From assembly GCA_903926075.1 (NCBI GenBank), contig CAIYHQ010000132.1:1-32453 (forward strand): 32,453 nt of DNA, read 5' to 3'. Made by a program: the position numbers and the translations under genes. A model generated the notes under the pieces. The model worked only from the letters and a program-made list of their open reading frames with translations, made no database searches and had not been told where the DNA came from. Below, piece after piece: positions 5,754 through 31,960 of this stretch. The number at the start of each line of letters is the position of its first letter. Position 1 is the stretch's first letter. The DNA is from an uncultured Methanomicrobiales archaeon. GTDB lineage: Archaea; Halobacteriota; Methanomicrobia; Methanomicrobiales; Methanospirillaceae.

Positions 5754-6539
5754 ATGTATAAATGGAATGCGAAAGAATATGCTGAAAATTCTTCCTTTCA
5801 AAAGTCGTCCGCATACGATTTTATCCAGAAACTGACGTTCAATGAAACAGATAGAATACTTGACATTGGGTGTGGCGACGGAAAAATCACGTTGGATCTT
5901 GCTAAAAAAGTTACCAGTGGTTATGTAATTGGTCTGGACCTCTCCAGCGATATGGTTAAATATGCTTATTCGAATTTTGAATCGGTTGAAAATATCTCTT
6001 TTATTAATGGTAATGCACAAACGCTCCCATTTTATAATGCTTTTGACGTTATCTTTTCCAATTATGCTCTTCATTGGGTACCCAATCATTACCAGTTACT
6101 CGCAGGAATCTATTGCGCCCTTCGTCCAAAAGGGAGAGTATTTGTACAAATGAGTGCAAAAGGAATTGGTACACCTATCTTCGATGCCACTGAGCAGGTA
6201 ATTAGCAAACCTTTCTGGAACAAATATTTTATTGGCTATGTTAATCCTTTTCAATATTATACCCTTGACGAGTATCGCTCTATCCTTGAAGGAGCCGAGT
6301 TTGCGATAAAACGGCTGGAAATCGTTCTGAGACAAATAGTGCATAAAAGCAGAGAAGGAATCACGGGTATGTTAAGGGCTGCTTTTCATCCTACCCTGGA
6401 GAGAGTTCCTCCCAATATTAGAGAAAATTTTCTAATGGAGTTAATAGATGTACTGGTGAGCAAATATCCTGCTGATAATGAGGGAGTTATTTGTATTCCC
6501 ACTATTGGGCTTCAATATGAGGCATGTATTAAAAAGTAA
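5754..6539 (+). CDS. Class I SAM-dependent methyltransferase (Tam/BioC-like)
   Basis: 261 aa from the ATG at 5754; an in-frame GTG at 5715 would add 13 residues, but family members begin near MYKWNAKEY and neither start has a clear ribosome site. Motif I is ILDIGCGDGKIT (SAM-binding glycine loop), the motif II acidic residue lies in VIGLDLSSDM, motif III is NGNAQTLPF, and FDVIFSNYALHW precedes the LRPKGRVFVQM post-motif. This order matches small-molecule carboxyl or C-methyltransferases of the trans-aconitate methyltransferase group. The substrate cannot be told from sequence. It has no obvious operon partner. Confidence 0.8.
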   Translation: MYKWNAKEYAENSSFQKSSAYDFIQKLTFNETDRILDIGCGDGKITLDLAKKVTSGYVIGLDLSSDMVKYAYSNFESVENISFINGNAQTLPFYNAFDVIFSNYALHWVPNHYQLLAGIYCALRPKGRVFVQMSAKGIGTPIFDATEQVISKPFWNKYFIGYVNPFQYYTLDEYRSILEGAEFAIKRLEIVLRQIVHKSREGITGMLRAAFHPTLERVPPNIRENFLMELIDVLVSKYPADNEGVICIPTIGLQYEACIKK

Positions 6540-23054: not shown

Positions 23055-23780
23055 ATGGTCTCATTTGAAAAAGAGCCATATTTAGAGGTTTTTAATGAAA
23101 GTAACTCTGATGGACTATCGATCTGCAGATTACTTCATGAAACTGACTTCTACTCTGTTGTGAAGCACATTGAGACGAAATGTTATACCTCAGATTCGAG
23201 TCACTTTCGTTATCCACCTGAGTTCATGGTGAAACTGGTAGTATTGAGAGCATTTCGAGGTCAATCGTTTCGTAAAACGATAGCCTCCCTGACTACTAAA
23301 GATTGTAAGCTTCTTTCGGCACCGAAGAAAAATGGACATTATCTCATCCCATCTCCTTCGACTCTTCACCATTTTATGAGGTACCGGTTAGATGAGAAGT
23401 GCTTTGAAGAAATCATTCGCATTGCTGGTACTCAGCTAGCGCGATTATCAGGTGAAAAAGATGGAATTATTGATTCGACCCCTCTGGAAGCATCAAGATA
23501 TGATCGCTATGCCGATTTTAATACTCATTACAATTGCAAAATCTGGCGAAAAGGAGGATCCATAAAATCTAAAATTAATGAAAAGTTGCGGTTTCTTTAT
23601 GAAAATGGAAGAACTGAAACTGTTGGGATGGGTCTCAGAAATCAGTCAATGATGGATCCTCATTTTGAAATGAGGTACGGAATGAGAGGAGATTGTGAGA
23701 GGACACATTCTCATATTCATTCTAAATTTTGGATATTGACTGTTTACAATATTGGCCTGTCCAATCATTGTGGTACCTGA
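23055..23780 (+). pseudogene. DDE transposase (DUF772 type, IS4/IS5 superfamily), internally deleted
   Basis: 241 codons. The N-terminal DUF772-like domain is intact: FRYPPEFMVKLVVLRAFRGQSF, SAPKKNGHYLIPSPSTLHHFMRYRL. The first catalytic Asp is in GIIDSTPLEASRYDRYADFN. The sequence then jumps from HYNCKIWRKGGSIKSKINEK to the late region YENGRTETVGMGLRNQSM and GMRGDCERTHSHIHSK (containing the late catalytic Glu region), so about 120-150 residues with the second Asp are missing. The last 18 residues are not family-like. The ORF end overlaps the right IS terminus. Inactive by itself; it could be moved in trans by a full-length relative. Confidence 0.8.
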
Positions 23781-23790
23781 TTGGACAGGC
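23755..23790. repeat. Perfect 13-bp inverted repeat (hairpin) at the IS right end
   Basis: GCCTGTCCAATCA at 23755-23767 and TGATTGGACAGGC at 23778-23790, separated by a 10-nt loop. The outer arm contains the terminal inverted repeat, so the IS end is duplicated in inverted orientation. It may act as a transcription stop or mark a rearrangement at the end. Confidence 0.85.
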
Positions 23791-24507
23791 TCTGATTACC
23801 CAGGCGAGGGATGGGGGAGATTATTATCTCTAACCGAATTTATCAGGAAATCATCCCCAGACAGCTCGCCTGGGAGAGTCAGTCCGGGATGGCGATTCGA
23901 CAGTCCTGGTTTGTTGATGAAGATGGAAGATTGAAGGTTCCCACTCTCATTGAATCTTTCAGGCAGTTCTTTTTGGAAAATTCTGAGATTTGGATCGAAC
24001 GATTTCACTACAAAGAAGCAGATCCTCAGATTCTTCTCCAGGCATTCCTTCAGCAGATAATTAATGGAGGTGGACAGATAGACCGGGAGTACGGGCTAGG
24101 CAGAACACGGATTGACCTCTTCATTCTCTGGCGACTAAAGGACGGCTCATTTCAGAGAGTAATTATAGAGCTAAAAGTTCTTCACAGGTCCCTTGAGCAG
24201 ATGATCATTGAGGGGATGGTTCAGACGTGGAAGTATGCTGATCTGTGCGGTGCAGATGAGGCCCATCTCATCATCTTCGATCGGGCAGTGGGAAAACCAT
24301 GGGATGAGAAGATATTTTTGGAGAACAGGGTGTATGAAGGGACTATCGATTATCCAACTCAGTTTCCTATCACCATCTGGGGAATGTGAACTCGACAGTA
24401 CTCTCCATGAGGGTGTTCAACTAAGCGTTCAAACCTAAAAGAAAGTTAAAAGATTATTGATCTCCTGTCCAGAGGAGTTGAAATGATTTTTGAAAAAAAT
24501 GGGCCTT

Positions 24508-25296
24508 TCAAGAAATTTTTTTTCCACACAACCTGCAGAACTTTGCCACGGGTTGTAAGGACACGCCACATGATAAGCAATAGAGGGGCAATTTTGTGGT
24601 TTCCGGTCCGGAAATCTCTTCCTCACCAACACTTCCCCCGAGCTTCCTTACTATCTCCTGTGCAGTTTTCACTTCACCTGCTGGGACAGGGACGCTGATC
24701 CCAAAAGGTCGAAGGATAAAAAGGCCTACCAGCTGCAGGAATGAAAAATCAAGCATGGGTGGTCTATTGGGAGTCCCTTTCACAAAACTGACCCCGTCCA
24801 TCCTCATCAGGAAGGAATGGAACGGGTAGACTGCCCCTTCGTAAATAATACCAGTACCGGTAATATATGCATCCTGTGGTGCGTTGAGGGCACGTTTCAG
24901 TTCGAGTTTCGGGGCCACGACTAAGATAATTGCAATAATTATCAACACGACAAAGAGAATTCCGGCAGTGAGAACACCGCCTTCCCCGCCGAAGAGGAGC
25001 ATAAGTATCATCCCGATAAGAAGAAAACCGCCTATTACAAAAAGCATCGCCCTGTTGGACTCCTGGTAGTTTGCATATTCACGTTCTGCACTTGTTTGTG
25101 TCTCTTCTGTCGGATAGACCCAGTGGGCAAGAAGATCCTTCCTGCCGAGAATGTCATCAATTGCCATGGCTCGGGTAAAGAAAAGGAATGCAACCGCAAA
25201 CGAACAGATAATAAGGAAAAATGAGAGAAACATTACCGCGTAACCCCCTGACATTCCGTCCATCGTCCCACCTGCCACAAACATGAGAATAAACAC
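24508..25296 (-). CDS. Membrane protein with C-terminal zinc ribbon
   Basis: 262 aa. The frame opens with GTG at 25296, but Met5, Met12 or Met15 are possible starts since no ribosome site is visible. Two to four membrane helices: about 16-42 and 83-130 (two in tandem). A soluble domain follows (NAPQDAYITGTGIIYEGAVYPFHSF, then PNRPPMLDFSFLQLVGLFIL). The C-terminus (about 238-262) is a zinc ribbon: C-L-S-C-G then F-C-R-L-C-G. Not assigned to a named family; likely a membrane protein of unknown role. It abuts, head to head, the truncated ATPase at 25.3 kb, where sequence context changes abruptly, so its upstream region may have been replaced. Confidence 0.65.
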   Translation of the reverse strand: MFILMFVAGGTMDGMSGGYAVMFLSFFLIICSFAVAFLFFTRAMAIDDILGRKDLLAHWVYPTEETQTSAEREYANYQESNRAMLFVIGGFLLIGMILMLLFGGEGGVLTAGILFVVLIIIAIILVVAPKLELKRALNAPQDAYITGTGIIYEGAVYPFHSFLMRMDGVSFVKGTPNRPPMLDFSFLQLVGLFILRPFGISVPVPAGEVKTAQEIVRKLGGSVGEEEISGPETTKLPLYCLSCGVSLQPVAKFCRLCGKKIS

Positions 25297-25308
25297 GATT
25301 GTCTACTG

Positions 25309-26307
25309 AACTTTTCACTCGCGGACTTTCCCACTCTGATGCTGGTATTTGAAAAGATCTCGCCGGTTACAAAAGTCATATTCATTGACGAAATCCAGAA
25401 CATTGCAAGTTGGGAACGTTTCATCCGCAGGATTCATGACGAAGAATATAAAGTCTTCCTGACCGGCTCGAATGCGAAACTGCTATCAGCAGAACTCGGG
25501 ACTCACCTGACTGGGCGCTATATGAAAATTACTCTGTACCCGTTTTCATTTCGGGAGGTACTGAGGTTCCGGGCCGTCACTGTAGACAGGATCACTGAAA
25601 AGAAGAAAGCGGCCATTATCAGGGAATTCGACCGTTACCTTAACGGGGGTGGGTTCCCTGAATATGTAAAATACGGGGACAATGAGTACCTGAAACAAAC
25701 ATACGCCGATATCCTGTTCCGGGATATTATCGGCAGGTATGGTATCCGCGAAGTGAAGGCATTTCGCAAGCTCACTCATTACCTATTCACCAATGTGGTG
25801 AACATGGCGAGTTACAATGCGCTGAAGTCGGCTCTCGGTATTAAGAGTGTTGGAATCGTGCGTGATTACATCGGTTTCCTGGAAGAAGCATACCTCGTCT
25901 TCGAGCTGTTCAAGTATGATTATTCTCTAAAAAAGGAGTACGTAAACGACAAAAAAATCTATGTAATAGACAATGGTATGAGAAACGCCGCAGCGTTCCG
26001 GTTTTCGGATGACCGGGGACGACTTTTAGAGAATCTCGTTTTCATTGAATTACTCTGCCGCAACAAAACGATATACTTTTTTAGGAATACAAAAGAATGC
26101 GATTTCGTCACGGAAGATCGTGGGAAGATAATGGCCGCAATCCAGGTCTGTTATGAGCGCTTTCACGTGAGAACCGGGAGAGGGGAAATTGAAGGCCTCG
26201 TTGAAGCGATGAAAACACTTTCAATCAGCGATGGTACTATCCTCACCTGGCACCAGGAAGAGACCATCGTCCATAATAACAATTCTATCCGGGTGCTTCC
26301 GGTCTAG
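25309..26307 (+). pseudogene. AAA_14/DUF4143 ATPase, 5'-truncated (lacks Walker A)
   Basis: About 330 codons, open from 25309 or earlier, first ATG at 25339. Walker B is VIFIDEIQNI, followed by FLTGSNAKLLSAELGTHLTGR and the DUF4143 region (YLNGGGFPEYV, VNMASYNALKSALGIKSVGIVRDYIGFLEEAYLVFEL, FFRNTKECDFVTEDRGK, AIQVCYE). Family members are about 400-440 aa and begin with a P-loop GxGK(S/T), which is absent. Sequence upstream belongs to the oppositely oriented zinc-ribbon gene, so the 5' part was lost at a junction near 25300. DUF4143 ATPases are archaeal/bacterial proteins of unclear function, often strain-specific. Confidence 0.8.
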
Positions 26308-26745
26308 CGATGGCTATTGGAATATGAATCGCCATTGGGGACTTCGAACCAGGAAATAATCCAAAAATAGTTGACAGAGAGTGGTCATGACGAAAGTCCA
26401 AAGTGTACGCCAAAGGAAACAATTTATTTTTTTTACTGCCGTTTAAGTGAGTCATAACGAAATTTTGGACTAGCAGTCGGTGTTACACCTTACCTTAACC
26501 GATAACAAATGGAAATTGATCTTTATTTGACTGGTTCGTTGATCTTCTCAGGGCTGGTGACCATATAGAGGTATCAACAAGAACTTTCCTCAATGTGATC
26601 GGTATTTCGTATAATCGTAGTCTGGATAATAATCCACATCTCCAAAGAGTATAATAACCTGAATTTGTTTCTTTTGTGTATATATTCCTCAAGTGCTTCT
26701 GTTTCAGAACACATTCAATCAAGATCACCGAAAAAGGCATCTTTG
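26308..26745. other. Gene-poor stretch with a PIN-domain scrap
   Basis: 438 bp without an intact gene. The only recognisable coding trace is the VapC-like fragment at 26495-26590, described separately. A short pair AGTCCAAA (26395-26402) and TTTGGACT (26464-26471) could be an inverted repeat but is too short to interpret. Confidence 0.4.
26495..26590 (-). pseudogene. VapC/PIN-domain N-terminal fragment
   Basis: On the minus strand the sequence reads (M)RKVLVDTSIWSPALRRSTNQ, then SNKDQFPFVIG and a TAA. VLVDTSIWSxALRR is the first strand and first catalytic Asp of PIN-domain toxins. The remaining roughly 100 residues, including the other acidic residues, are absent, and no VapB antitoxin was recognised beside it. 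A dead toxin remnant. Confidence 0.55.
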
Positions 26746-27255
26746 TCAACTGGGATAGTGTAGAGGGGTGAAAGGAAACTTTGCATAAGAAAGGACCCAG
26801 TGCCATACCGGCATTACTTCAATAACATAATCACCTGAATCAATTTTATCAAACTGGCGTAAAGTAAGAATAAGTCCGTTTTTACAATTACATACTCTCA
26901 TTGCCTCAATAATCCCCGAAATTTCCCGTTCACGATTTTCGTTCATTAGTTCCAAAGAGACCTGAATTGCACCTGTAATCTCTCCTCTCTCGCTAATAAG
27001 GAAATCGCATTCTCCTTTCCCTTTCAACCAATAGACAGTATATCTCCTGCGTATAAGTTCCAACCATACAACCTGCTCCAGCAGAAGTCCGGCATCATTT
27101 GAAAAACGAAAACTTACTGCATTTCGCATCCCGCAGTCAACTCCATAATATTTTCTACTGAAGGAGTGCTGCTTTCGCAGTGAACTATCAAAGCGATAGC
27201 ACTCATGAAAGAGAAAGGACTCTTCCAGATAATCTACCCATGCTCTTATGGTCAT
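26746..27255 (-). pseudogene. DUF4143 ATPase remnant, N-terminal two-thirds missing
   Basis: 169 codons homologous to the C-terminal half of the ATPase at 25.3 kb: YLEESFLFHECYRFDSSLRKQ, VDCGMRNAVSFRFSNDAGLLLEQVVWLELI, KGECDFLISERGEITGAIQVSLE, IIEAMRVCNCKNGLILT. An ATG at 27255 opens the frame, but a stop codon lies about 12 bp upstream and the whole AAA domain is absent. The final 20 residues run past the normal end of the family. Together with its neighbour this shows two independent DUF4143 genes decaying side by side. Confidence 0.75.
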
Positions 27256-27302
27256 TGGGTTTTTCAGTTAACCTTTTTTATCTTCTGTTCTAAGAATCAA
27301 TT

Positions 27303-27515
27303 ATGCTATCTATAGATGGTTATATCGATTATAAACGTCGGGAATATTGTAATGATGTTAAATGCCCTATTCAACTGCTTTTAAATAAAGAAGAGGAAAA
27401 ATCTTCAAAATATGAAGAAATTCGGGCAATTTGTTCATCCAATTGTCTACATAGTACCCACGAATTTCACTTTTGGTTAATAGAGAAGGGGTACCTAATC
27501 ATCAGACATAATTGA
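27303..27515 (+). CDS. Small conserved 4-Cys protein
   Basis: 70 aa. Cysteines at C16, C21, C44 and C48 (C-x4-C ... C-x3-C), in REYCNDVKCPIQLLLNKEEE and EEIRAICSSNCLHSTHEFHFWLIEKGYLI. The tail HSTHEFHFWLIEKGYLI has the look of a winged or small alpha/beta end. From memory, similar short proteins occur in methanogens, but I could not check this. Four cysteines suggest a Zn or Fe-S site, unproven. The gene is 57 bp upstream of the LsrF-like gene, which has its own TATA box. Confidence 0.65.
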   Translation: MLSIDGYIDYKRREYCNDVKCPIQLLLNKEEEKSSKYEEIRAICSSNCLHSTHEFHFWLIEKGYLIIRHN

Positions 27516-27530
27516 AAATAATCACAACTT

Positions 27531-27538
27531 TTTATATA
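27531..27538 (+). promoter_or_regulatory. TATA box of the LsrF-like operon
   Basis: TTTATATA, a textbook archaeal box A, lies 34-41 bp before the ATG at 27572, which predicts a leader of roughly 10-15 nt. The best promoter match in the window. Confidence 0.6.
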
Positions 27539-27571
27539 ATAGTGTATCATTAATTCTCGAGAAGTGTCCCT

Positions 27572-28396
27572 ATGGTAAATGCATATCTTGATACTGGAAT
27601 TCAAAGCCGAATGAACCGGATAATCAATCCGAAAGATAATCGGGTAGTTATGTTTGCAATAGACCATCCCTATTTCCAGGGGCCGACAACGGGCTTGCGC
27701 AATATGAGTAAAACTATAAAAACACTACTTCCCTATTGCGATTGCCTGATGACGACTCGGGGTGCAGTGCGGAATAATATTGCGTTGGAGGATGTTGGAA
27801 AAAAACCCATCATGTTGCGTGTTACAGGGGGAAACAGCGTATTAAATGAGGAATTAAGTGATGAAAAACTTACAGTTACAATTAAAGAATCCATTAGGAT
27901 GGATGCGGCAGGTGTAGCGGTCAGTGTTTATATTGGATCTGTCAATCAACAACAAACTATTATAAATCTTACTGAAATGATTAACCAGGCCGAAGAATAT
28001 GGAATTCCGGTTTTGGCTGTTACAGCTGTTGGTAAAAACATGGCACGGGATTTGCGCTATTTAGCTCTTGCATCCCGTATTTGCCAGGATGCCGGCGCCC
28101 GGATTATTAAAACATATTATTGTGAGGATTTTTCTAAACTGGTTGACTATGTTTCTCCAACTCCTGTCGTAGTTGCAGGAGGTAAGTATACAAGTCCTCC
28201 TGATTCTCTTCAAATGGTTCACAACTCAATGGAAGCTGGTGCAGTTGGAGTTGATTTCGGACGAAATATTTTCCAGGATGACAATCCTGTAGGCATGATT
28301 AAATCAATTGGTTCAATTGTCCATGAAAATTATACTGTAAATGAAGCCTTGGAAATTTACAATGCATGTTTACCCGCTGCATCGAAGCTGGATTAA
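27572..28396 (+). CDS. LsrF-like class I aldolase / thiolase
   Basis: 274 aa, FBA/DeoC-type TIM barrel. Close match to LsrF features: GIQSRMNRIINPKDNR, AIDHPYFQGPTTGL at 29-42, TRGAVRNNI, LRVTGGNS, VYIGS, VGKNMARDLRYLALASRI, IIKTYY with the Schiff-base lysine K180, VVVAGGK and GVDFGRNIFQDDNP. In bacteria LsrF transfers an acetyl group from a phosphorylated dihydroxy-pentanedione to CoA in AI-2 breakdown. No lsrK/lsrR/lsrG genes are nearby, so the archaeal substrate is probably different. A Zn-dehydrogenase follows by 44 bp, pointing to a short catabolic or biosynthetic pathway. Confidence 0.85.
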   Translation: MVNAYLDTGIQSRMNRIINPKDNRVVMFAIDHPYFQGPTTGLRNMSKTIKTLLPYCDCLMTTRGAVRNNIALEDVGKKPIMLRVTGGNSVLNEELSDEKLTVTIKESIRMDAAGVAVSVYIGSVNQQQTIINLTEMINQAEEYGIPVLAVTAVGKNMARDLRYLALASRICQDAGARIIKTYYCEDFSKLVDYVSPTPVVVAGGKYTSPPDSLQMVHNSMEAGAVGVDFGRNIFQDDNPVGMIKSIGSIVHENYTVNEALEIYNACLPAASKLD

Positions 28397-28440
28397 TGTT
28401 TCATATTTTTTTTTAAATTTTCTCTCCCTGGTGAATAAAA

Positions 28441-29493
28441 ATGAAAGCTGCCATCTATTTTTCGAACAGTGACATTCGCACAGAAGATGTTGATGATTTA
28501 TCAGTAGGGCCCGGAGAAATCAAGGTCAAAATCATGGCATGCGGAGTATGTGGATCTGATGTCATGGAATGGTATCGATTGAAACGTGCCGGAAGACCTG
28601 GTGGTATTGGAGCTTTTGGACATGAATGCACAGGAATCATTACGGAAGTCGGTTCCAAAGTAGATCTAAAATGGAATGTGGGAGATCGGGTCGTGGTGAC
28701 CCATCATGTAGCATGTAACACGTGTAATGTATGTTTACGCGGGCACACTACCGCATGTGACACACTGCAAAAAACAAAATTTAAAAATGCGTTTGGAGCG
28801 TTTGCAGAATATGTTGTTTTGCCCGAAATCAACGTGGATCGGGGTATTTTACGTCTTCCCGAATCGGTTTCTTTTGAATTGGGAACCTTTATTGAACCCC
28901 TTGGAAGTGTTTTGCGGGGGAATCAATGGGCTCCGACCTCAGATGGTCGTTCAATCCTAATAATTGGGGCAGGTATTACCGGATTATTACATATTCAGGT
29001 AGCTCGGTTGAATGGTGCCGGTTATATTGCAGTTTCTGATATTAATCCCGATCGTTTGAAACTCGCCCAAAAATTTGGCGCTGATGCAATTATTTTGGCT
29101 ACTGAAGATGTTCCCAAAAAGTTTAAAGAATTAAACAATGGATTGGGCGCAGATACCGTCATTATGACTGCACCGATTTCCATTTGTGTGAAACAATCAC
29201 TTGAAGCAATTGGACAGGGAGGAACTATCTTATTTTTTGCCCCCACAAATCCTGAGATTCAATCTGAAATTAATCTTTGGGATTTATGGCAAAAAGAGAT
29301 TACTATTACCCATTCATATGGTGCTGATTTCCATAATCTTTCAACGGCCTTAAAATGGATTCAATATAACAGAATTAATGTGACAGATATGATAACTCAT
29401 GTTTTTCCATTAGAAGAAACGGTTGAAGGTTTTTTATTAACTGCCCAACCACGTGAGGGCAGCTTAAAAGTTATCATCCATCCACAAGAATAA
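28441..29493 (+). CDS. Zinc-dependent alcohol/polyol dehydrogenase (MDR)
   Basis: 350 aa, medium-chain dehydrogenase. Catalytic zinc ligands: C37 (GVCGSD), H61-E62 (GHECTG) and E152 (IEPLGSVLRG). Structural zinc: C92, C95, C98, C106. The NAD(P) Rossmann turn is GAGITG at 176-181, with D198 or nearby acidic residue in VSDINPDRL suggesting NAD preference. Closest family resemblance is to the threonine/sorbitol dehydrogenase group. Ribosome site is not distinct; a 44-bp gap separates it from the LsrF-like gene, so both are probably one transcript. It may oxidise the alcohol that the aldolase cleaves. Confidence 0.85.
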   Translation: MKAAIYFSNSDIRTEDVDDLSVGPGEIKVKIMACGVCGSDVMEWYRLKRAGRPGGIGAFGHECTGIITEVGSKVDLKWNVGDRVVVTHHVACNTCNVCLRGHTTACDTLQKTKFKNAFGAFAEYVVLPEINVDRGILRLPESVSFELGTFIEPLGSVLRGNQWAPTSDGRSILIIGAGITGLLHIQVARLNGAGYIAVSDINPDRLKLAQKFGADAIILATEDVPKKFKELNNGLGADTVIMTAPISICVKQSLEAIGQGGTILFFAPTNPEIQSEINLWDLWQKEITITHSYGADFHNLSTALKWIQYNRINVTDMITHVFPLEETVEGFLLTAQPREGSLKVIIHPQE

Positions 29494-29692
29494 CTTTTTT
29501 TGTACCTATTCATTTGTTTCTTGATAATTTTTATTTTTAGATTTGCACACTTATTTCTATCACAAATCTTTCGACCGGCTTCGAAGTTACCTAGGCATAT
29601 ACGACCTCTCTTTCTCTGTATGTCAATACATTACCACCGTTTTCTTTTTTACAACCCCGAGGTCGTAATCGGTGTATTGCGGTCAGATATTT
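29494..29692. other. Intergenic, nothing recognised
   Basis: T-rich stretch after the dehydrogenase stop (TTTTTTTG at 29494-29501) that may terminate transcription. An open plus frame here has no recognisable protein features. The conserved repeat copy A begins at 29693. Confidence 0.4.
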
Positions 29693-29803
29693 GGAGAAGA
29701 TCTAAGTATCGAAGCAAGTGCTGAGGGTGGGGTGAGATGCTAAAAGAAGAGTGAGTTTTTAGGGGTAATCACTCGATAGTTACTTGAAGCCCTTTTGAGC
29801 TGC
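29693..29803. repeat. HTH-tail/spacer/histone-end module, copy A
   Basis: Homologous to copies B (30869-30997) and C (32228-32312). It contains, on the plus strand, a decayed HTH tail: LEKI-stop-VSKQVLR against EKIGVSRQAVR of copy B, then a deletion and GAGATGCTAAAAG. The spacer follows, then the last codons of the intact histone gene on the minus strand. A 6-bp inverted repeat GAGTGA (29749-29754)/TCACTC (29769-29774) with a 14-nt loop may form a bidirectional terminator. Confidence 0.75.
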
Positions 29804-29992
29804 CATGTCAATATCTTCTTCCTTGATAGTCTTCCTTCCGGCATGAATAGCTAGTTTATTTGCTTCTTTCGCAAGTTGGCCTATGTATTCCTCTGCTTTC
29901 TCTACAAGCACTTTGGTTGCATCGCTTCCCACACGCTCGGCTCCGTTTGCCTTTGCGATTCTAATTACTGCTGCACTTGGTAAGTCTGCCAT
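29780..29992 (-). CDS. Archaeal histone (HMf/HMt family)
   Basis: 70 aa histone fold: LPSAAVIRIAKANGAERVGSDA (helix 1 and loop), TKVLVEKAEEYIGQLAKEANKLAIHAGRKT (long helix 2) and IKEEDIDMAAQKGFK (helix 3). Sequence of 65-70 residues with no tail is typical of euryarchaeal histones that dimerise and wrap DNA. The R-x-G-S-D loop and the H-A-G-R-K-T pairing residues are present. It is a chromatin protein with no operon partner visible. Stop lies inside repeat copy A. Confidence 0.93.
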   Translation of the reverse strand: MADLPSAAVIRIAKANGAERVGSDATKVLVEKAEEYIGQLAKEANKLAIHAGRKTIKEEDIDMAAQKGFK

Positions 29993-30092
29993 AATTTTTG
30001 CCTATTACAAGATATCTTTTAGAACAGATAAGATTGTCGGCTTGATTTTTTTTATTTGCCGAATTTTCGTGTATGGTTTCATGCACTTTCAA

Positions 30093-30221
30093 TTAGTATT
30101 GAGAAGGAGCGTTATTTGCTGATTGAAATTCGGAGGCAGATGAGAATAGGTTTCTAATATCTTCAAGTGTGGATATTGCATTATTGATATGAAGTAGATA
30201 CACTTGGTCTGATCGTTTCAT
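30093..30221 (-). pseudogene. HepT-like (HEPN/DUF86) gene, truncated to 42 codons
   Basis: Minus-strand ATG at 30221 overlaps the TGA of the nucleotidyltransferase in an ATGA. It reads MKRSDQVYLLHINNAISTLED, matching the opening of DUF86/HepT proteins, then IRNLFSSASEFQSANNAPSQY and TAA at 30093. Normal HepT is about 110-115 aa and its catalytic R-x4-6-H motif lies in the missing part. The antitoxin-like partner is intact. A genuine overlap plus a recognisable start makes this a solid call. Confidence 0.7.
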
Positions 30222-30517
30222 CCAAAGATCACGACCTGTTCACTCTGTATGATCTCCTGAAGGTAGGTACTAATTGCCTGGTTGGTTAGAAGATCTACCT
30301 TAATCTGAAGATGTACTTTCAATTCTTCTTCAATCTGAACAAGTTTCATAAGCGAAAGGGGCTTATCAAACCATACAATAATATCAAGGTCGCTAACCTG
30401 AGTTGCATCCCCCCGTGCCCGTGAACCAAAAATGGCGATCTTTTTCACTCCATATGGACGAAGCAGATCTATTATCTCTCCTTTTTGGTAATCTGTAACT
30501 TCCAGTTTTTCTTCCAT
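30218..30517 (-). CDS. mntA: MntA-type minimal nucleotidyltransferase (antitoxin)
   Basis: 99 aa MNT. Catalytic motif GSRARGD at 31-37, D43 and D45 in SDLDIIVWF, and third Asp D75 in QIKVDLL. In HEPN-MNT toxin-antitoxin pairs MntA adenylylates HepT and blocks its RNase activity. Here HepT (overlapping by 4 bp) is cut to 42 codons, so MntA may be an orphan, kept by chance or with another HEPN protein such as the one at 31.6 kb. Confidence 0.85.
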   Translation of the reverse strand: MEEKLEVTDYQKGEIIDLLRPYGVKKIAIFGSRARGDATQVSDLDIIVWFDKPLSLMKLVQIEEELKVHLQIKVDLLTNQAISTYLQEIIQSEQVVIFG

Positions 30518-30761
30518 CTCTTCACCCCAATGTCAGTTGCCCGTCTGATCCATGTTCTTCAACACACCTTAGTTTTCTGATCTCAGTTCAGGAAGGTGAT
30601 AAGACTATTGTATTCAAATGCTTTACTTGGTCATTCCTTCCGTTCATATATAACATAGATACGGTAGGCGAGAGAACGAGCCCGATATCCCCATTTGTCC
30701 AACAAGTTTTCCTAGGAATTCAGTATCTCGTTGTTATCAGTGTTTATCTAATGCCTGAAAT
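30518..30761. other. Intergenic, nothing recognised
   Basis: Upstream of mntA and before the HTH ORF. The base composition is closer to coding DNA than to a spacer, but no frame gives a recognisable protein on either strand. Confidence 0.35.
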
Positions 30762-30845
30762 ATGTTGTTGGGTCTCTTCCCAGACTGGAAGTGTGTATCT
30801 GTATCGGGACCCTTGTCATCTGGTGAGGTTCATTCGCTATCTCAT

Positions 30846-30947
30846 ATGTTGAGCCTTGCTGAGGTAGCGGAGAAGATCGGGGTGTCGAGGCAAGCGGTCA
30901 GGGCGTCTGTAATGTGGATGAGGAGGGAGATGCTAAAAGGAGGGTAA
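30846..30947 (+). CDS. Small helix-turn-helix ORF, copy B
   Basis: 33 codons from ATG 30846 (LSLAEVAEKIGVSRQAVRA, then SVMWMRREMLKGG), TAA at 30945-30947. The frame stays open upstream to 30762. LAEVAEKIGVSRQAVRA is a clear helix-turn-helix recognition pair. On its own it is very short for a DNA-binding protein and may be the C-terminus of a longer decayed regulator or a stand-alone micro-protein. Decayed relatives with the same ending occur in repeat copies A and C. Confidence 0.45.
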   Translation: MLSLAEVAEKIGVSRQAVRASVMWMRREMLKGG

Positions 30948-30997
30948 TTTATTGGGAGTATTCACTCGACGGTTATTTGAAGTTCTTTTGAACCTGG
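30869..30997. repeat. HTH-tail/spacer/histone-end module, copy B
   Basis: Contains the intact HTH end on the plus strand, the spacer GGGTAATTTATTGGG, and on the minus strand the remnant of a histone 3' end reading VQKNFK-stop (against AAQKGFK-stop in the true histone). Similarity to copy A is high from CAAAAG to CATCTC on the minus strand. The rest of the histone gene is absent. Confidence 0.7.
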
Positions 30998-31001
30998 CTC
31001 T

Positions 31002-31274
31002 CTGAAGTAGTATAATTGAATAAAAATGCTTCTTTGGGCGTGTAGTGGCAAATTCTACTGAAGATAATTATATTCTCTACCTTCATTCTCTTGATATAAT
31101 ACACAGGAAGATGAATAATAGGTCGGCCATTCCCAACCTGATTTACGATGTATATTATAAAAACTCTTTCAAATGACCTTAATGAAATAAAAGAGTAAAT
31201 CACTCCCCTTTCGCAATGTGTCTGTGCTTTGGTTGACGTCTTATCTCTGAAAGAAGGAAAGTGTCATAGAGATA
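31002..31274. other. Intergenic, nothing recognised
   Basis: 273 bp between module copy B and the nucleotidyltransferase stop at 31275. A 76-codon minus frame covers it, but only its final residues (VQKNFK, repeat-derived) resemble anything. Confidence 0.4.
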
Positions 31275-31601
31275 TTATGGAAGAACAACTCCTTTTCTTA
31301 GTGTCCCGGCAATCAAGGATTTTTTATCCTGATATTCCTCAATTGTTAAGGTTATTACATCGAGAGGTATTTTAAATTTTTTTACTGTATGCATCTCTGC
31401 ATCTTTTGTAAGTAAAGCCCTATCAAAGATATCCCTGTTTACAAAATCATCGGAGATTATTGCGATATCGATATCACTGCCAGGTGTTATAGTGCCAGTA
31501 CTCGATGAACCAAACAGAATAAGGTTATTGATTTGAATTCCGTTATTCCGGATTTCGGCACTAAAAAAATTTACAGCTTCGAGGACTTTTGAATCAACCA
31601 T
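31275..31601 (-). CDS. MNT nucleotidyltransferase of a HEPN-MNT pair
   Basis: 108 aa. Nucleotidyltransferase motif GSSSTG at 31-36, D43 and D45 in GSDIDIAIIS, third Asp D81 in KIPLDVITLTIEEY. AAGGAG about 9 bp before the ATG at 31601. It follows the HEPN gene by 17 bp on the same strand. In these modules the HEPN protein is a ribonuclease and the MNT protein neutralises it. The gene order is HEPN first, unlike the MntA-first order at 30.2 kb. Confidence 0.85.
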   Translation of the reverse strand: MVDSKVLEAVNFFSAEIRNNGIQINNLILFGSSSTGTITPGSDIDIAIISDDFVNRDIFDRALLTKDAEMHTVKKFKIPLDVITLTIEEYQDKKSLIAGTLRKGVVLP

Positions 31602-31618
31602 GCGAGAATCTCCTTAGT

Positions 31619-31960
31619 TTAGGATAAAATTTTTTCGGTCTTTGTTTTGCTATATTGTTCAATAACCTTTTCAATGTTATTGGGATAACGTCCAGTCACT
31701 CCGATACGATTGATGACAAACAGTGAGTCCAAATAGGACTGAGGCGGTTCCAGTTCTACAAGTTCAACCAGATAAATAAGGCTGTGAGTTTTTTCCGGAT
31801 TTTCATTGTATTTCTCTATGTATAATGCTTTCAAGGCTTTTTCCAAAGATAGATGACAAAAAAATATCGCAGGTGGATATCTTCCTACCGAAACGAGAGA
31901 TTCGGCTGTACCAAGATCATATTGCGCCTGTCGGAACCATTCAACGGATTCGGGGGTCAA
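31619..31960 (-). CDS. HEPN-domain protein of a HEPN-MNT pair
   Basis: 113 aa. HEPN features: WFRQAQYDLGTAESLVSVGRYPPAIFF, HLSLEKALKALYIEK, KTHSLIYLVELVEL, ending with GRYPNNIEKVIEQYSKT. This matches the HEPN subgroup with WxxxAxxDLxxA and SLEKALKA. H36 and H59 are candidates for the catalytic histidine, but a clean R-x4-6-H is not certain. Paired with the MNT gene at 31275-31601. Probably an RNase-type toxin or a HEPN with lost activity. Confidence 0.8.
   Translation of the reverse strand: MTPESVEWFRQAQYDLGTAESLVSVGRYPPAIFFCHLSLEKALKALYIEKYNENPEKTHSLIYLVELVELEPPQSYLDSLFVINRIGVTGRYPNNIEKVIEQYSKTKTEKILS

Follow-up and report, generated by a model that had tools for sequence, protein, structure and literature searches.

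We identify a conserved three-gene module in archaea, built from two known enzyme families, an LsrF-type aldolase and a zinc dehydrogenase, together with a small four-cysteine protein whose family has no match in any of the libraries searched. The module was recognised in a 32,453-nucleotide stretch of DNA (the window) from an uncultured Methanomicrobiales archaeon, whose genome assembly (3.14 Mb, 134 contigs, 96.9% complete) encodes MCR_alpha. The original prediction had described a pair consisting of the aldolase and the dehydrogenase; that pairing is real and the observation holds, but it extends further than described: a third gene joins the pair in 25 of the 30 phylum genomes that have the aldolase. 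The module almost certainly acts as a functional unit, and looks like a system that recycles a deoxy-sugar phosphate, unrelated to bacterial signalling. Among open-access papers, we found no title or abstract opening describing this archaeal module, subscription papers being mostly outside this coverage.

Both predicted open reading frames were confirmed, with the aldolase (274 aa) at 27572..28396 and the dehydrogenase (350 aa) downstream of it at 28441..29493, both on the forward strand. Family cut-off, PDB matches and conserved residues identify the former as an LsrF-type class I aldolase/thiolase: it scores 334.8 bits against the NCBIfam model NF006081 (LsrF-type thiolase, cut-off 297), entries for E. 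coli LsrF head its PDB matches (E 5.6e-70), and it is ~45% identical to enterobacterial LsrF. Its close named relatives belong to Methanoregulaceae and other Methanomicrobiales. The Schiff-base lysine of the LsrF active site, said from the outset to be kept, is Lys180 of the window protein (Lys203 in LsrF), and the equivalents of LsrF Asp251, Gly226/227/253 and Arg254 are retained as well; in the available portion of the source that describes these roles, the three glycines and the arginine bind phosphate (PMC2728841). Across 42 module aldolases, the Asp251 position is occupied by Asp in 34 and by Asn in 8.

The second gene is indeed a zinc dehydrogenase, a medium-chain dehydrogenase (MDR) with Pfam ADH_N and ADH_zinc_N domains. 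All four catalytic (C37, H61, E62, E152) and all four structural (C92, C95, C98, C106) zinc-ligand positions are present, with roles that we presume from the MDR family, and a CGxDxMEWYR motif is invariant in an alignment of 25 sequences. Its fold is that of threonine and polyol dehydrogenases, oxidisers of secondary alcohols, with many polyol enzymes lying structurally near. By HMM comparison, threonine dehydrogenase is the closest family, but both threonine 3-dehydrogenase cut-offs are missed (167.5 against 380 bits and 160.6 against 458.35 bits), and no NCBIfam subfamily cut-off is reached.

Clustering of open reading frames around the loci of relatives brought out the third component, a small gene upstream of the aldolase (27303..27515, forward strand) that had previously been overlooked, encoding a 70-residue protein with four cysteines (C16, C21, C44, C48) and an FHxWL motif. 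Of 28 tabulated loci, 27 have it; the remaining one, L053, begins inside the aldolase at a contig end. Residues Y10, R13, E14, C16, C21, P22, Q24, C48, F55, H56, W58 and L59 are invariant in 37 members, and in proteins of family f30 the cysteine of position 44 is shifted one column further. Compared with the window gene, dN/dS is 0.03–0.14 in 8 of 13 comparisons, with dS saturated in the other 5; the small gene is under strong purifying selection. Judged by its sequence, this is a conserved family that matches no library searched (Pfam, NCBIfam, PDB): the window protein has no Pfam or NCBIfam match up to E 1 and no PDB match up to E 5, the 37 members searched against Pfam give a best E of 0.0038 with any one family hit by at most 7 members, and the family profile searched against the PDB gives a best E of 1.8. 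The best AlphaFold2 model contains four helices at a pLDDT of 90, although three of the five models reach a mean pLDDT of only 56–59; compared with the PDB, the model yields a best Foldseek E of 3.5 (none at or below 0.001) and a best VIA-align Z of 2.0. The gene is also absent from IMG/VR and the plasmids searched. Most likely, the protein has a putative metal or Fe-S cluster site and works with the aldolase or the dehydrogenase, in which case it could represent a new metal-binding subunit. Second copies of the small gene lie away from an aldolase in two genomes of family f16 (L095, 396-608; L096, about 6196-6402), the L096 copy containing stop codons.

A promoter-like block of the CCTTTTT...AGAATCA type (27268..27302, forward strand) stands immediately before the small gene and is conserved, a similar block preceding the small gene in most of the methanogen-type loci compared (by eye, without a score). 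As to the strong TATA box initially attributed to the pair, a TATA-like element, CTTTTTATATAA, does occur at about 27528-27539 on the forward strand, but it sits between the small gene and the aldolase; the T-run at this site is conserved in methanogen-type loci, the exact TATA only partly.

A loss of the aldolase-dehydrogenase pairing in relatives was looked for, and the pairing was found to be kept, exceeding chance. The dehydrogenase follows the aldolase in 25 of the 25 loci where the contig continues (28 tabulated), and is missing only from L033, L048 and L054, where the contig ends. Among 392 genomes of the phylum, 30 encode the aldolase, 30 the dehydrogenase and 29 both; the corresponding Fisher values for co-occurrence (1.4e-41 and 7e-35) ignore relatedness, so they are not usable as probabilities. 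Clear small-gene matches number 25, all within the aldolase-bearing set, two further reported matches out of 27 (G220 and G368, E about 0.006) having been dropped as chance. The only aldolase without a dehydrogenase is in G325 (64% complete), and the only dehydrogenase without an aldolase in G127 (76% complete). Aldolases without the small gene occur in G032 (contig end), G084 and G093 (family f12), G245 (f31) and G325 (f34), and profile searches detected no convincing small gene at the f12, f31 and f34 loci or at the further loci searched with them. Of 61 genomes near the window (own included), 14 encode the close aldolase, the module being missing from the other 47.

Physical linkage is tight in most of these genomes. 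Aldolase and dehydrogenase, as read from coordinates, lie at most 1.3 kb apart in 24 of the 29 co-occurrence genomes, and the small gene adjoins one or the other in 24 of 25, the exception being G386, where it is on a different contig from the pair. The gap between the two enzyme genes measures 29–72 bp in 21 of 25 loci and 586–1239 bp in L039, L041, L043 and L047, where it contains a SpoIIAA-like open reading frame on the other strand (L039) or a flavodoxin-like gene (the other three). These flavodoxin-like proteins (PF12724; L041 6903-7382, barely at the cut-off; L043 6963-7511; L047 6874-7347) belong to Methanolinea-type loci, and a flavin partner may join the module, given their position between aldolase and dehydrogenase in three loci.

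The arrangement of the genes varies by family. In f36, small gene, aldolase and dehydrogenase follow one another almost without gaps, and the three f30 loci read (L097–L099) have the succession aldolase, dehydrogenase, small gene. Families f16 and f19 keep the small gene and aldolase together, with the dehydrogenase 0.5–21 kb off or on another contig; f16 includes dehydrogenases far from the aldolase (G074, G092, G106) and one on another contig (G099). Downstream of the dehydrogenase come a class II aldolase and deoC in 6/6 f16/f19 loci examined, after two intervening short open reading frames in G106; the dehydrogenase locus of G083, which is cut, is outside those six. That genome also carries the one single-ORF fusion of small protein and aldolase (L089), which may be an artefact of sequencing; the two genes are separate in G132, a member of that family. 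Separately, in G038 a class II aldolase on the opposite strand precedes the small gene by about 1.2 kb (L034, 3969-4532, reverse strand). All three genes are also present on three Asgard contigs, two from Sigynarchaeota and one from Lokiarchaeota, with 72–81% identity to the window, a similarity that suggests transfer between groups or else mis-binned contigs; on one of them, L051, 1.4 kb separates the small gene from the aldolase.

In phylogenetic trees, the module aldolases and six bacterial LsrF proteins form one group against the ADH synthases (100/100). Within it, the window aldolase, 21 methanogen-type and three Asgard sequences make up one clade (100/100), and the bacterial LsrF proteins form a single branch (96/99), with several archaeal branches beside it in an order that the tree does not resolve. 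Archaeal members keep their dehydrogenase partner. The trees place the aldolase of G092 (f16) with that of f31 (100/97), and its dehydrogenase with f16 (99/98). An apparent in-place exchange of the aldolase, with retention of its partners, supports one shared function.

No wider neighbourhood is shared around the methanogen modules, flanking genes being common only to small groups of loci. In the window, a truncated DUF4143 protein (26746-27255, reverse strand) lies immediately upstream of the module on the opposite strand, preceded by an AAA_14/DUF4143 ATPase (25339-26307, forward strand). Three reverse-strand genes (31275-31601, 31619-31960 and 30218-30517) encode a nucleotidyltransferase (MNT) and an adjoining HEPN protein, together resembling a HEPN-MNT toxin-antitoxin system, plus a second, lone MNT. 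A weak match to the DUF772 transposase domain, under the cut-off, at 23055-23780 (forward strand) is possibly a mobile element remnant. A tie to methanogenesis was rejected, since only 15 of the 23 genomes tested, and no f16/f19 genome among them, gave an MCR_alpha match. Weak, divergent MCR_alpha matches also occur in module genomes (five in G325, two in G245) and may represent alkane-type rather than methane-type enzymes.

As to function, the original prediction had pointed to an archaeal pathway for a 2,4-diketone, and a phosphorylated 2,4-diketone, the substrate type of LsrF, does fit the anatomy of the module. We tentatively propose, at somewhat less than an even chance, that the module performs oxidative, CoA-dependent cleavage of a phosphorylated 5-deoxypentulose. 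The starting compound would derive from 5'-deoxyadenosine, a radical-SAM by-product, through phosphorolysis and MtnA-type isomerisation to 5-deoxyribulose-1-phosphate. The zinc dehydrogenase would then act on a 5-deoxypentulose-1-phosphate, most probably this one, and oxidise its hydroxyl at C4. Derived on paper, this step (CH2OP-CO-CHOH-CHOH-CH3 to CH2OP-CO-CHOH-CO-CH3) would give 3-hydroxy-5-phosphooxypentane-2,4-dione (CH3-CO-CHOH-CO-CH2OP), bacterial LsrF's own substrate. From homology and active-site residues, the LsrF-type enzyme would cleave this diketone with CoA to DHAP and acetyl-CoA, the CoA-dependent reaction that Marques et al. (2014) reportedly described for LsrF. Because C4 oxidation would yield the substrate of LsrF, a polyol-type dehydrogenase beside an LsrF-type enzyme acquires a natural reading without a kinase. 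The class II aldolase and deoC beside the f16/f19 dehydrogenase fit the same mechanism, and in these families the genes could form a cycle with DHAP as carrier that converts acetaldehyde to acetyl-CoA.

For M. jannaschii and bacteria, the available portions of three papers report or propose that 5'-deoxyadenosine metabolism passes through 5-deoxyribulose-1-phosphate, and the fate of the deoxyribose part in M. jannaschii is a matter of proposals only (PMC6079011, PMC8102628, PMC6302742). In favour of the proposal, the enzymes it would need upstream are there, MtnA in 37/37 genomes (6 module-free among them) and PNP_UDP_1 in 6/6. Genome content does not single out this compound, since MtnA and class II aldolase (59/61 genomes near the window) occur with or without the module. 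MtnA consequently failed as a discriminating partner, and the prediction that module and class II aldolase would be complementary failed too. Several observations count against the mechanism: class II aldolase already gives 5-deoxyribulose-1-phosphate another exit, Asn replaces Asp251 in 8 of the 42 module aldolases, f12, f31 and f34 have no recognisable small gene, f16 dehydrogenases can be far off, and 47 of 61 relatives are module-free. The full mechanism, substrate included, has in our estimate slightly poorer prospects of being right than wrong. The most specific version, a new anaerobic archaeal route in which 5-deoxyribulose-1-phosphate derived from 5'-deoxyadenosine is oxidised and cleaved with CoA to DHAP and acetyl-CoA with the help of a four-cysteine metal or Fe-S subunit, is possible but doubtful. 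If true, it would explain the fate of the deoxyribose part of radical-SAM by-products in module-bearing archaea.

The same two-step chemistry might instead serve another phospho-2,4-diketose, formed, for instance, from a 6-deoxyhexulose-1-phosphate, with lactyl-CoA and DHAP as products, or from 1-deoxyxylulose-5-phosphate, which would lead to the same diketone. We regard this as possible, if on balance rather unlikely: LsrF-type residues and a secondary-alcohol dehydrogenase would suit any such substrate, and the f16/f19 class II aldolase and deoC fit several deoxysugar phosphates, but nothing points to either of these two compounds in particular, and to our knowledge the synthesis of 1-deoxyxylulose-5-phosphate by DXS is not on record for archaea. 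Less probable, and in our judgement unlikely, is that the pair works in reverse or on unrelated substrates, as an ordinary aldolase and a polyol or threonine dehydrogenase of a different route. The dehydrogenase's HMM and structural neighbours described above would suit this, as would the Asn-bearing aldolases, but the threonine-dehydrogenase cut-offs are clearly missed, and strict co-occurrence of the dehydrogenase with an LsrF-type enzyme calls for a joint substrate.

The further suggestion that the archaeon scavenges bacterial AI-2 or its breakdown products is not supported, and we consider it very improbable. It has LsrF homology in its favour, and anaerobic communities contain AI-2 producers. 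Against it, and in agreement with the earlier remark that no lsr genes lie nearby, a Pfam scan of the 10 open reading frames at 23055-31960 detected no LsrG, LsrR or LsrABCD. Across the whole host genome, no FGGY_C protein was found, with 14/14 control genomes positive, so the genome has no LsrK and hence no full lsr set. LuxS is absent from 16/16 module genomes tested, and we know of no place for a dehydrogenase in AI-2 breakdown by the LsrK-LsrG-LsrF route. With FGGY kinase and LuxS both missing, AI-2 scavenging was rejected. An LsrF homologue outside an lsr operon is in itself unremarkable, such genes being common, bacteria included. Bacterial LsrF proteins do occur in lsr operons, as in Enterobacter and on a Lacticaseibacillus plasmid with annotated lsrK. 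Homologues are also found in Sagittula, in a sugar operon that further encodes an FGGY kinase, a glycerol-3-phosphate dehydrogenase and a class II aldolase, in Shinella beside an SDR oxidoreductase, a sugar transporter and an FGGY kinase, and in a dihydroxyacetone kinase context in Aureibacter and Parabacteroides. Given these varied contexts, the LsrF label says little about AI-2. With an unvarying dehydrogenase and a commonly present small protein as partners, non-lsr LsrF homologues instead gain a testable metabolic meaning. In the available portions of two papers, LsrF homologues are treated as indicators of quorum sensing, archaea and syntrophs included (PMC11442133, PMC10787695).

All 61 genomes near the window, its own included, encode some member of the aldolase superfamily, and module-free relatives keep a tandem ADH-synthase-like pair. 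In the host genome, this pair lies on contig C66 (12906-14467), an arrangement seen again at matched loci of many relatives. That the enzyme serves the synthesis of aromatic amino acids or sugars, in the manner of ADH synthase or FBP aldolase, is the least credible reading, for despite the common superfamily and 29% and 26% identity to the C66 pair, the module aldolase falls under the ADH synthase cut-offs (190.9 against 241 bits, 170.5 against 299.45 bits) and the NCBIfam archaeal FBP aldolase cut-off, belongs to a separate clade (100/100), and would duplicate a tandem pair that the genome and its module-free relatives already have.

Four known systems come nearest to the module. With the LsrF of the lsr operon, the module aldolase shares the family cut-off, the catalytic lysine, Asp251 and the phosphate-binding residues, but the module lacks an FGGY kinase and nearby lsr genes, has a constant dehydrogenase and, in most cases, the small protein with four cysteines in their place, and its aldolases branch apart from the bacterial LsrF tested. 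ADH synthase (2-amino-3,7-dideoxy-D-threo-hept-6-ulosonate synthase) has in common the DeoC/LacD superfamily and the class I lysine; the module aldolase differs in its score below the cut-off and its separate clade, and the equivalent of Asp251 in ADH synthase is Ser or Cys. Threonine, polyol and galactitol-1-phosphate dehydrogenases, all zinc MDR enzymes, share the fold and both zinc sites with the module dehydrogenase, which is about 24–30% identical to them among the PDB matches listed, reaches no subfamily cut-off and has its own CGxDxMEWYR motif. With the DHAP shunt (DrdK-DrdI-DrdA; MtnA and class II aldolase), 5-deoxyribulose-1-phosphate and DHAP would be common. An MtnA-type isomerase and a class II aldolase are present in the host genome, but they are not specific to module genomes and so provide no evidence that the module belongs to this shunt. 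In the shunt, as described in the available portion of its source, cleavage proceeds without oxidation and acetaldehyde is released (PMC6079011), whereas the module would oxidise first, and its second product would be acetyl-CoA.
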